Shown piece after piece: positions 22,924 to 33,245 of a stretch of DNA of 64,000 nucleotides (its first letter is position 1; the number at the start of each line of letters is the position of its first letter). The translations under genes were made by a program, and so were the position numbers. The notes below the pieces were generated by a model. It did not search any database and had not been told where the DNA came from. It worked only from the letters and a program-made list of their open reading frames with translations. The stretch comes from Pseudonocardia humida (GTDB lineage Bacteria > Actinomycetota > Actinomycetes > Mycobacteriales > Pseudonocardiaceae), in NCBI RefSeq assembly GCF_023898865.1, contig NZ_JAGSOV010000061.1, positions 1 to 64,000 of the forward strand, written 5' to 3'.

Positions 22924-23769
22924 TCAGTCCAGGAGTGCTCGGAGGGCCTCCCCCATCCGGGTCGCGGCCGTGCGGGCCGCGTCGGCGAGCGGCGCGAACT
23001 TCCAGAACCCGTGCGGGAGCGCGGGTTCCTCGACGTGGTGGACCGGCACCCCGGCGGCCCGCAGCCGATCGGCGAGCGCCCGGGCCTCGTCGCGCAGCGG
23101 GTCGAGCCCGGCCCCGACGACGACGGCCGGCGGCGCCGACGCGAGGTCGGGCGACAGCAGCGGCGCGGCCCGCGGGTCCTGGCGCTGGGCCGGGTCCGTG
23201 AAGTACTGCCCGAGGCACCACTCGATCGCCTCGGAGGTCAGCCCGTACCCCTGCCCCACCTCGGTCCGCGACGGGTAGGACGGGTCGCCGCTGACCAGCG
23301 GGTAGGCCAGCAGCTGGGCGACCGGCGCGGCCGGGGTGCCGGCGAGCGCGAGCGCGGCGCCGAGCGCGAGGTTCGCCCCGGCGCTGGGCCCGGCCACCGC
23401 GACCCGGTCGGCGAGGTGGGCGCGGGCCCAGCCGACGGCGGCCACGGCGTCGTCGTACGCCGCGGGGAACGGGTGGTCCGGGGCGAGCCGGTAGGCGACC
23501 GAGAGCACCGGCCGACCCGTCGTCCGGCACAGGTCGCGCGCCTGGGCGTCGTGGCTGTCGAGGTCGCCGCTGACGAAGCCGCCGCCGTGGAAGAACACGA
23601 CCAGGCAGTCGTCGAGGTCGTCGCGGTAGAGCCGGGCCGGGAGGGTCCGGCCGGTGAGCGGCAGGTCGAGGTCGCGGACCGCCCGCACCGGCGGCCCGGG
23701 CGGCCGGGGGCTCCCCCCGGGCACGGGCGAGAGGAGCGCGGCGACCTGCGCGTCCAGAGCGGGGGGCAC
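22924..23769 (-). CDS. HSL-family alpha/beta hydrolase (carboxylesterase/lactonase-like)
   Basis: 281 residues from a GTG start. The hormone-sensitive-lipase family marks are present: oxyanion motif FFHGGGFVSGD, YRLAPDHPFPAAYDDA, nucleophile elbow GPSAGAN (normally GDSAG, so Asp is Pro but the Ser is kept), the acid in GLDPLRDEA and His in LPHGFWKF. It starts 5 bases after the transporter ATPase gene, as the last gene of the carboxylate operon. An ester, lactone or thioester substrate linked to that pathway is likely. Confidence 0.85.
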   Translation of the reverse strand: MPPALDAQVAALLSPVPGGSPRPPGPPVRAVRDLDLPLTGRTLPARLYRDDLDDCLVVFFHGGGFVSGDLDSHDAQARDLCRTTGRPVLSVAYRLAPDHPFPAAYDDAVAAVGWARAHLADRVAVAGPSAGANLALGAALALAGTPAAPVAQLLAYPLVSGDPSYPSRTEVGQGYGLTSEAIEWCLGQYFTDPAQRQDPRAAPLLSPDLASAPPAVVVGAGLDPLRDEARALADRLRAAGVPVHHVEEPALPHGFWKFAPLADAARTAATRMGEALRALLD

Positions 23770-23774
23770 CAGCG

Positions 23775-31195: not shown

Positions 31196-32280
31196 CTCTG
31201 TGGGTCGGGCGGAGTCGGCGGGTGGGCCGGGACCGCGGCGAGGACCGCCTCGGTCAGCTCCCGGGTGGTGGCGGTGCCGCCGAGGTCGGGGGTGCGGACC
31301 GCGCCGTCGGCGAGGGCCCGCTCGATGCCGGTCATCAGCGCGCGGGCGGCGGCCGGCTCGCCGAGGTGGTCGAGCATCATCGCCGCCGACCAGAGCGCAC
31401 CGAGCGGGTTCGCGACGCCGCGGCCGGCGATGTCGGGCGCCGAGCCGTGCACCGGCTCGAACATCGACGGGAACTCCCGCTCGGGGTTGATGTTCGCGGC
31501 CGGCGCGATGCCGATGCTGCCGGCGATGGCGGCGGCGAGGTCGCTGAGGATGTCGCCGAACAGGTTCGAGCCGACGAGCACGTCGTAGGACGACGGGTGC
31601 AGCACGAGTTTCGCGGCGAGCGCGTCGATGTGCTCCGAGCACCAGGTCACCTCCGGGTGCCGGGCGGCGCGCTCGGCGACGACCTCGTCCCAGAACGGCA
31701 TCGTGTGCACGATCCCGTTGGACTTGGTGGCCGAGGTGAGGTGGCCGCGCCGGGTCGCGGCCAGGTCGAAGGCGTAGTCGGCGATCCGGGTCACCCCGGG
31801 GCGGGTGAACACCGCCTCCTGGACGGCCATCTCGTCGGGGAAGCCGCGGTTGAGCCGCCCGCCGATCTCGCTGTACTCGCCCTCGACGTTCTCCCGGACG
31901 ACGACGAAGTCGACCTCGCCCGGCTCGCGCAGCGGGCCGGGCAGGCCGTCGAGCACCCGGATCGGGCGCAGGTTGACGTACTGGCGGAACCGCCGTCGGA
32001 TCGGGATCAGCAGGCCCCACAGCGACACGTGGTCGGGCACCCCCGGCCAGCCGACGGCGCCGAGCAGGATCGCGTCGTGGCCGGCGATCCGGTCCAGGCC
32101 GTCGGTCGGCATCATCGCGCCGGTCTCCCGGTAGCGCCGGCACGACCAGTCGAAGCGGTCGTAGTGCAGCGTGAAGCCGCACCGCGCGGCGACCAGGTCG
32201 AGGGCCTGCTGGGCGGGCGGGATCACCTCCGTCCCGATGCCGTCGCCAGCGATGACCGCGATGCGGTACGCGGCGGTCAT
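31192..32280 (-). CDS. tartrate/D-malate dehydrogenase-type beta-decarboxylating dehydrogenase
   Basis: 362 residues, the size of DmlA/TtuC. Family marks are GDGIGTEVIP at the N-terminus, VVRENVEGEYSEIGG with the catalytic Tyr, TKSNGIVHTMPFWDE with the catalytic Lys, the metal-binding Asp residues in SNLFGDILSDLAAA, and EPVHGSAPDIAGRGVANP. Such enzymes oxidise D-malate, tartrate or related 2-hydroxyacids with NAD+ and Mn2+, with decarboxylation where a beta-carboxylate is present. It overlaps the upstream 2-hydroxyacid dehydrogenase gene by ATGA. The exact substrate among C4-C6 acids cannot be fixed. Confidence 0.88.
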   Translation of the reverse strand: MTAAYRIAVIAGDGIGTEVIPPAQQALDLVAARCGFTLHYDRFDWSCRRYRETGAMMPTDGLDRIAGHDAILLGAVGWPGVPDHVSLWGLLIPIRRRFRQYVNLRPIRVLDGLPGPLREPGEVDFVVVRENVEGEYSEIGGRLNRGFPDEMAVQEAVFTRPGVTRIADYAFDLAATRRGHLTSATKSNGIVHTMPFWDEVVAERAARHPEVTWCSEHIDALAAKLVLHPSSYDVLVGSNLFGDILSDLAAAIAGSIGIAPAANINPEREFPSMFEPVHGSAPDIAGRGVANPLGALWSAAMMLDHLGEPAAARALMTGIERALADGAVRTPDLGGTATTRELTEAVLAAVPAHPPTPPDPQR

Positions 32281-33245
32281 GCGCTGCGCCCGATCAGGTG
32301 GGCGTTGACGCAGTGCCGTGCCCGGCCGGCGAGCGCGGCGACCAGCTCGGCGGCGCCCTCCCGGCCGGCGGCGGCGCGGGCCTGCGCGGTCTGGCCGGCG
32401 AGGTGGGAGCAGACGACGATCCCGTCGACCCCGCGCAGCGGGCTGTCGGCCGGCAGCGGCTCGGCCACGGTCACGTCGAGCGCCGCTCCGGCGATCACCC
32501 CGTCGCGCACCGCGGCGGCCAGCGCCCGCTCGTCGACGACAGCGCCCCGGGCCGTGTTCACCAGCACCGCCGTCGGTCGCATGCTGCGCAGCTCGGCGGC
32601 GCCGATCAGGCCGCGGGTGCGCTCGGTGAGCGCGGTGTGGATCGAGACGTGGTCGGACCCCGCCAGCAGCTCGGGCAGCTCGACGAACCGGACCGACGGG
32701 TCGGTCCGCCGGTCGGCGGGCACGCCGGTCGTGCACAGCACCGTCATCCCGAAGGCCTGCGCCAGGGGTACGACCGCTCGGGCCGCCGCGCCGTAGCCGA
32801 CCAGACCCAGCGTCGCACCGCGCAGCTCGTGCCCGTCCTCGCGCGGCCAGCCCCCGGCAGCCACCCCGGCCGCGCTGTGCACGATCCGGCGGGCGGCGGC
32901 CAGCAGCAGGCCGAGGGTGTACTCGGCGACCGCGTTGGCGTTGACGCCGGGCAGGTTGCTGACGCCGATCCCGTACCGGGCGGCGGCGGCCACGTCGATG
33001 GAGTCGTAACCGACGCCGGTGCGGACCACGGCCCGCAGCCGGGGCGCGCGGGCCAGCACCTCGGCGGTCAGCGGCTCGTTGGCCACCAACGCGGCGTCGG
33101 CGTCCCGCAGGAGCTCGACCAGCTGCTCGGGGTCGCGACGCCCGACGAGCGGCGCGTGGACCGTCTGCAGACCGTGATCGATGAGGTACCGGTCGACCCC
33201 GTCGCCGGGCGCGAGGTAGTCCGTCGTGATCAGGACGCGGGTCAC
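32277..33245 (-). CDS. D-isomer-specific 2-hydroxyacid dehydrogenase
   Basis: 322 residues from GTG at 33245. The family triad is visible: Arg in VVRTGVGYDSID, Glu in VTVAEPLPADSPL, His in VCSHLAGQT. The NAD motif is GLVGYGAAARAV, where the third Gly of G-x-G-x-x-G is Ala. Closest in layout to phosphoglycerate-dehydrogenase-like hydroxyacid dehydrogenases without an ACT domain. It is the first large gene of the carboxylate operon, and its start codon overlaps the stop of a 15-residue leader frame (GTGA). Confidence 0.88.
   Translation of the reverse strand: MTRVLITTDYLAPGDGVDRYLIDHGLQTVHAPLVGRRDPEQLVELLRDADAALVANEPLTAEVLARAPRLRAVVRTGVGYDSIDVAAAARYGIGVSNLPGVNANAVAEYTLGLLLAAARRIVHSAAGVAAGGWPREDGHELRGATLGLVGYGAAARAVVPLAQAFGMTVLCTTGVPADRRTDPSVRFVELPELLAGSDHVSIHTALTERTRGLIGAAELRSMRPTAVLVNTARGAVVDERALAAAVRDGVIAGAALDVTVAEPLPADSPLRGVDGIVVCSHLAGQTAQARAAAGREGAAELVAALAGRARHCVNAHLIGRSA

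Follow-up and report, generated by a model that had tools for sequence, protein, structure and literature searches.

The 64,000-nucleotide stretch analysed here (positions 1 to 64,000 of contig NZ_JAGSOV010000061.1 of Pseudonocardia humida; hereafter the window) carries an operon of nine tightly packed minus-strand genes at 22924-33245, two of which encode an AtuA-like protein and a protein of the family DUF4387. The best reading of this pair is a two-subunit enzyme of the same kind as the citramalate lyase CmlAB, and a lyase reaction thereby becomes testable for two families whose names so far say 'acyclic terpene utilisation' and 'domain of unknown function'. From 5' to 3', the operon encodes a D-2-hydroxyacid dehydrogenase, a tartrate-dehydrogenase-type enzyme, the AtuA-like protein, the DUF4387 protein, a flavin adenine dinucleotide (FAD) dehydrogenase, a solute-binding protein, a fused permease and an ATPase of an ATP-binding cassette (ABC) importer, and an esterase. 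We consider it fairly probable that these genes form a self-contained system for the uptake and CmlAB-type cleavage of an external tertiary-hydroxy di- or tricarboxylate.

Searched against the Protein Data Bank (PDB), a profile built from 22 AtuA-like proteins, including one encoded on an E. coli plasmid, had a single significant match, chain A of 9erq (E = 2.6e-184), which is named there both 'Acyclic terpene utilization AtuA family protein' and 'Citramalate lyase, subunit A (cmlA)'. The DUF4387 family profile matched chain B of the same entry, 'Citramalate lyase, subunit B (cmlB)' (E = 1.1e-36), and the AtuA-like protein of the window on its own reached 9erq_A with E = 2.3e-85. AlphaFold models of the two window proteins (predicted local distance difference test, pLDDT, 93.4 for the AtuA-like and 93.5 for the DUF4387 protein) were aligned by Foldseek with chains A and B of 9evf at template-modelling (TM) scores of 0.90/0.92 and 0.80/0.85, respectively, and no other solved chain reached E 0.001 with either model. 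Entry 9evf, released on 2025-10-08, bears the title 'Citramalate lyase - ADP - pyruvate complex' (ADP, adenosine diphosphate). Thirteen residues of the AtuA-like proteins are invariant in our alignments A1 and A3 (D44, S47, D49, R184, D187, K210, E213, H255, Y258, E259, K304, E306 and H442), as are the motif RSKNAG and residues K74, R79, D90 and Q95 of the DUF4387 proteins; read by eye, the invariant residues of both subunits also occur in the 9erq chains. The window pair thus resembles CmlA/CmlB in both subunits, in fold and in most conserved residues.

These matches bear on a preliminary description of the operon, made from the sequence alone, in which the pair was suspected to act as a lyase or hydratase on a hydroxylated di- or tricarboxylic acid. 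With the nearest solved homologue deposited as a citramalate lyase, the lyase was right in kind and the substrate class is supported, while the hydratase found no support. The same description spoke of a possibly undescribed pathway, which is only partly right, as structures of an AtuA/DUF4387 pair have been public since 2025.

The pair-type proteins fall largely into two clades. In a tree of 137 sequences from one FastTree run (132 proteins of the pair type, with five canonical AtuA proteins as outgroup), clade I (16 sequences, support 0.992) held E. coli, Klebsiella and Prevotella plasmid proteins together with proteins from the phylum of Clostridium sp. MCC353. Within seven genes, the span also used for the importer, methylaspartate-pathway and carboxylase counts below, 13 of these 16 have mal and 11 have glmE, surroundings that correspond to the route from glutamate to citramalate. 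In PMC4682846, a DUF1446 gene whose function was unknown is noted next to mal, and the fate of citramalate is called unclear. The window protein falls outside clade I, in clade II (105 sequences from 104 loci, support 1.0, with low support at several nodes within the clade), and a further group comprising L064, L071, L074 and others lies outside both. None of the 105 clade II sequences, that of the window included, has a relative of the glm/mal (methylaspartate-pathway) genes nearby; where the CmlAB clade has mal and glmE, the window clade has importers, relatives of the operon's D-2-hydroxyacid dehydrogenase, which resembles phosphoglycerate dehydrogenase (PGDH), and tartrate-type dehydrogenases (TDH).

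Homology, the fold match to 9evf and the carboxylate importers encoded nearby would also suit a plain citramalate lyase working on environmental citramalate, that is, on the same substrate as CmlAB but supplied by uptake and not by synthesis from glutamate. We regard this as unlikely, given the separate clade, the consistent residue differences and the missing methylaspartate-pathway neighbours; moreover, citramalate has no secondary alcohol, which would leave both hydroxyacid dehydrogenases of the operon unexplained. A separate clade that lacks methylaspartate and carboxylase genes and has importers near 85 of its 105 members suggests a substrate other than citramalate, a suspicion whose main grounds are the separate clade and the poor fit between citramalate's tertiary alcohol and these dehydrogenases. 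That the window clade is a further class of CmlAB lyases, acting mainly on something other than citramalate and with an uptake-based catabolic route of its own, is a serious though still tentative proposition. If it holds, a pathway of many actinobacteria and several proteobacteria becomes testable.

The two clades also frame another alternative, in which AtuA/DUF4387 of the window is some other nucleotide-dependent enzyme (for example a carboxylate kinase or isomerase) and the lyase reaction is confined to clade I. The ADP in 9evf is in keeping with this, as the nucleotide may take part in the reaction, and so is the lack of a further significant fold relative in the Foldseek search. It is nonetheless decidedly improbable, because 9evf also holds pyruvate, the expected product of citramalate cleavage, and the residues that are most conserved are common to both clades.

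The surroundings of the clade II genes say more about where the substrate would come from. One detected importer type lies near 85 of the 105 sequences, and two detected kinds never occur together: 53 have a major facilitator superfamily (MFS) protein, 14 an ABC importer, 11 a tripartite tricarboxylate transporter (TTT) and seven a CitMHS protein, and none was detected for 20. Within an actinobacterial subclade of 64 sequences (support 0.923), MFS alone is found in 52, ABC alone in nine, neither in three and both in none. In this subclade, then, unrelated importers replace each other around the same enzymes, which speaks strongly for an imported compound as the substrate of these enzymes. The importer that the preliminary description had assigned to the operon as its own is thus matched in its relatives by TTT, CitMHS, MFS or ABC systems. 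Other neighbours among the 105 are GntR (53), PGDH (51), TDH (36), HyuB (10), FAD dehydrogenase (10), HyuA (9), RraA (6) and class II aldolase (6), and MmgE/PrpD, hydrolase or tannase-like genes stand close to the pair in a few loci.

The clade II neighbour figures are counts in a sample and not rates: the scan of genome contigs took the best 80 of at least 585 confirmed relatives, so that all clade II counts are weighted towards actinobacteria close to the window. From the phylum of Clostridium sp. MCC353, 20 of the 58 listed DUF4387 places were included, one of them being the centre genome. L146 and L242 are identical and represent the same locus, so that the 132 sequences stand for 131 loci and the 105 for 104, and both are counted among the seven with CitMHS. 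Dropped before the counts were L131 (AtuA-like gene in two frames, longest piece 295 amino acids), L039, L143, L240 and loci sharing the last 300 AtuA residues; no AtuA-like gene had been called in L039, L143 and L240, although frames for both AtuA-like and DUF4387 proteins turn up in each of them in a later profile search, those of L039 being partial. Neighbours are undercounted, because gene calling used a script of our own based on a GC-frame score, many of the contigs are short, and neighbour classes were assigned by BLAST to one or a few references.

The gene order of the window is not a chance arrangement, as it recurs elsewhere. Thermocatellispora tengchongensis (L083) repeats it in full, with a divergent GntR gene; Acrocarpospora (L085) has it without the tartrate-type dehydrogenase and the esterase, Actinomadura sp. 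6K520 (L077) without the FAD gene, and Nocardioides sp. TF02-7 (L131) in part. In the window, the GntR gene, with Pfam GntR and FCD domains, lies at 33395-34153 on the plus strand, opposite the operon and separated from it by 149 bases; relatives of its product that are 66-77% identical are encoded divergently in the ABC-type loci L077, L083 and L085. The range 22924-33245 given in the preliminary description was right for the nine genes, all of which are present as placed and were confirmed in their families by Pfam, but it left out this regulator gene and a putative operator, and it should be widened to take in both the GntR/FCD gene and the 149-base gap.

The putative operator is the palindrome TTGCTATAGCAA at 33339-33350, between the operon and the divergent GntR gene; it would be the binding site of the GntR protein. 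Of 42 divergent GntR intergenic regions, all but L105 contain it with at most two mismatches (exactly in 22, with one mismatch in 16 and with two in three, 41 in all), counts that come from related loci, which are not independent trials, and from a motif read from the window itself. Among 2100 base shuffles, none contained it with zero or one mismatch and 10 did with two. In the 8,287,167 bases of its own genome no other site comes within one mismatch, and the backward control gives none; in 21 other genomes the exact palindrome occurs in 10, once in each and always within the stretch of the lyase cluster. A first guess at a GntR site pattern had found no match.

Several observations weigh against the proposed uptake and cleavage system. 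Identity to the solved enzyme is about one third (36% in the structure comparison); the name citramalate lyase rests on the PDB record of 9erq/9evf, for which a literature search found no accompanying paper; and we know of no clade II protein with an activity. The clades differ in their usual residue (shared by at least 85% in clade I and 70% in clade II) at 28 positions, for example K61, C90, T92, E268 and N404 in clade II against F, A, G, G and R in clade I, and the window protein has the clade II residue at 26 of these positions and the clade I residue at two. The accessory genes are not constant either, with the FAD gene detected in 10, the esterase in eight and the tartrate-type dehydrogenase in 35 members of the 64-member subclade. 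Finally, the palindrome with one mismatch has 39 sites in the 21 other genomes versus 50 for the backward control; since such sites are no commoner than the control, only the exact ones carry weight there, and no extra regulon genes could be named when an expansion of the regulon was tried.

A further possibility is that the pair keeps canonical AtuA chemistry, its substrate being a terpene- or leucine-like acid bound as a thioester to coenzyme A (CoA). The two share a Pfam family, and relatives of the AMP-ligase and the enoyl-CoA hydratase of the canonical locus in the same genome occur near five and two of the 105 clade II genes, respectively. However, the match to the profile is weak (86-88 vs 523-538 bits), Pfam detected no CoA ligase, CoA transferase, carboxylase or enoyl-CoA hydratase among the nine genes, and relatives of the two carboxylase subunits are found near none of the 105. 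The carboxylase-linked AtuA of P. humida is, moreover, a different gene: contig 58 (L159:9020-18718) carries a canonical AtuA with a mycothiol-type protein, enoyl-CoA hydratase, AMP-ligase, biotin carboxylase, carboxyltransferase and acyl-CoA dehydrogenase, and this atu locus of the carboxylase type is separate from the window gene. We therefore consider canonical chemistry highly improbable, and a terpene or geranyl-CoA function was rejected for the window copy. The absence of carboxylase partners noted in the preliminary description is thereby borne out, and homologues in terpene or carboxylase loci, which it named as a finding that would tell against its reading, were not encountered in clade II. 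A second canonical AtuA of the same genome lies on contig 41 (L157, L160).

Canonical AtuA is nevertheless a distant homologue of the window large subunit: in profile comparisons of the large proteins the matching halves scored 99.1% and the wrong halves 0.1% and 0.3%. The canonical protein is usually one fused chain, and the carboxylase-linked copy of P. humida, with its carboxylase and CoA-ligase neighbours, consists of PF07287 followed by a C-terminal PF23544 domain, whereas Pfam finds PF07287 only in the window protein, without the fused PF23544 domain. Its DUF4387 partner is probably the detached counterpart of this ferredoxin-like domain, judging from profile comparisons, their controls and the split canonical AtuA of L188 and L189, in which a large gene is accompanied by a separate small one, so that fused and split states both exist in the AtuA family. 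The comparison of DUF4387 with PF23544 gave E 5.4e-05 (probability 67%, 51 columns), and 1.8e-05 (78%, 69 columns) with a broader set; in global mode the probability was only 33% (E 7.9e-05). The score of 36.0 compares with 8.4 for the reversed alignment and 19.2 for the highest-scoring of 39 column shuffles. Plain hidden Markov model searches were weak (best E 0.00098 one way and 0.014 the other, in small databases), and the homology is accordingly probable and not proven. It would tie the AtuA-like/DUF4387 pair to canonical AtuA, an enzyme with no more than a tentative reaction assignment so far.

The two genes of the pair travel together. In 130 of the 132 sequences, the AtuA-like gene is followed by DUF4387 within 900 bases; in the other two (L144, L064) DUF4387 lies farther downstream. 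It was found in 27 of 150 genomes from the family to which P. humida belongs, in 4 of 296 sampled across the phylum and in 57 of 249 from the phylum of Clostridium sp. MCC353, each count including the centre genome. A literature search returned no mention of DUF4387.

As for the chemistry, a retro-aldol cut of a 2-hydroxy-2-alkyl-succinate yields a 2-oxo acid and acetate. In the proposed uptake and cleavage system, the ABC importer would bring the hydroxy acid into the cell, the esterase may release the acid from an ester or lactone, and the AtuA/DUF4387 pair would cut it in this way. Three further enzymes, the hydroxyacid dehydrogenase, the tartrate-type dehydrogenase and the flavoprotein, would feed or drain the cleavage step, the dehydrogenases presumably handling a hydroxy- or 2-oxo-acid product or a side substrate, and the divergent GntR protein would act on TTGCTATAGCAA. 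What the sequences show is the make-up and order of the operon, the homology and modelled fold of both subunits, the distinct clade, the link with importers and the conserved intergenic palindrome; the lyase reaction in clade II, the substrate, the roles of the accessory enzymes and GntR binding are inferences.

Citrate or a citrate-like tricarboxylate, cut without CoA to oxaloacetate (or a homologue) and acetate, could also be the substrate. The TTT importers and those of CitMHS, a citrate-transporter family, point in this direction, as do the RraA-family genes near six of the 105 sequences (a family that includes oxaloacetate decarboxylases) and the nearest solved relatives of the binding protein, described below; the clade-specific lysine K61 could, if it lies in the pocket, take the third carboxylate. 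Yet TTT, CitMHS and MFS proteins are not citrate-specific, and PGDH and the tartrate-type dehydrogenase would have no explanation, so that this substrate, too, seems unlikely to us. A hydroxylated citramalate such as itatartarate would accommodate the dehydrogenases, although as a specific candidate it is a long shot. Its cleavage would release acetate and hydroxypyruvate, which the D-2-hydroxyacid dehydrogenase would reduce to D-glycerate; the tartrate-type dehydrogenase would lead into the same pool, and a lactone precursor could be opened by the esterase. Itatartarate (2-hydroxymethyl-malate) is described as a fungal product in PMC9875883, although the single lactonase reported in that paper is small and belongs to another type of protein.

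The D-2-hydroxyacid dehydrogenase (32277-33245, minus strand as for all nine; PF02826/PF00389, 2-Hacid_dh) is PGDH- or glyoxylate-reductase-like, its nearest solved chains being phosphoglycerate dehydrogenase 1wwk and glyoxylate reductase 5aov. The tartrate-dehydrogenase-type enzyme (31192-32280, Pfam Iso_dh) passes the NCBIfam equivalog model for tartrate dehydrogenase TTC with 529.5 bits (cut-off 470.4) and is closest to the solved tartrate dehydrogenase 3flk (E = 4.3e-120); tartrate is a candidate substrate, and the MFS-type clusters differ in mostly holding a more distant paralogue, 56-61% identical (74% in L053 and L057). The AtuA-like large subunit (29804-31195, 463 amino acids; PF07287, 88.4 bits, cut-off 22.8) and the DUF4387 small subunit (29473-29811, 112 amino acids; PF14330, 106.4 bits, cut-off 27) are encoded by genes overlapping by 8 bases. 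The FAD-binding dehydrogenase (27818-29476, Pfam FAD_binding_2) is of the PRK12834/NF009472 type, with 974.6 bits against the NF009472 cut-off of 476.

The importer consists of a solute-binding protein (26598-27716, with an alternative start at 27791; Pfam SBP_bac_1), a fused permease with two modules (24847-26601, two BPD_transp_1 stretches) and an ATPase with a TOBE domain (23775-24854; PF00005, ABC_tran, and PF08402, TOBE_2). The nearest solved chains of the binding protein are the 7f6e/7f6u group (E = 5.5e-35), labelled iron-binding in the PDB and probably the Mg-citrate protein MctA of Thermus. The architecture is that of Fe3+/aminoethylphosphonate-type ABC importers, but the three proteins fall below the NCBIfam cut-offs of PhnS2, PhnU2 and PhnT2 (18.7, 121.6 and 368.9 bits vs 392.75, 593.25 and 457.7, respectively). 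Phosphonate uptake was rejected: phosphonate models are among the top NCBIfam hits of the transporters and of GntR, all below cut-off, and none of the nine genes encodes a phosphonate enzyme. The esterase (22924-23769, alpha/beta-hydrolase, Abhydrolase_3) has relatives, 38-40% identical, that close the operon in L077 and L083. Given the predicted starts, neighbouring genes overlap by 4-8 bases at six of the eight junctions and stand 5 bases apart at another, while 26-101 bases separate the FAD and binding-protein genes. Searches for sigma-70 sites, terminators, repeats and tRNAs gave nothing useful; a 98-base tRNA-Ala (ggc) called by ARAGORN at 34134-34231 on the minus strand overlaps the end of the GntR gene and is probably spurious.

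Downstream of the operon, a GCV_T (aminomethyltransferase/LigM-like) gene at 21142-22854 on the minus strand and branched-chain-type ABC transporter genes at 18553-20915 look like a separate operon, perhaps for demethylation. Elsewhere, two partial DUF4387 matches at L065:9913-10125 (G442 contig 29) reflect a sequencing error or a broken gene. In one genome of the same family as P. humida, L064:726-10188 carries in one run an AtuA-like gene, whose product lies outside both clades, hydantoinase B/A and glutamate-mutase-like genes, and DUF4387. On a Klebsiella plasmid (L073:5614-13673), AtuA/DUF4387 is accompanied by genes for aldehyde dehydrogenases and a fumarase, and an IS26 element and fosA3 are close by.

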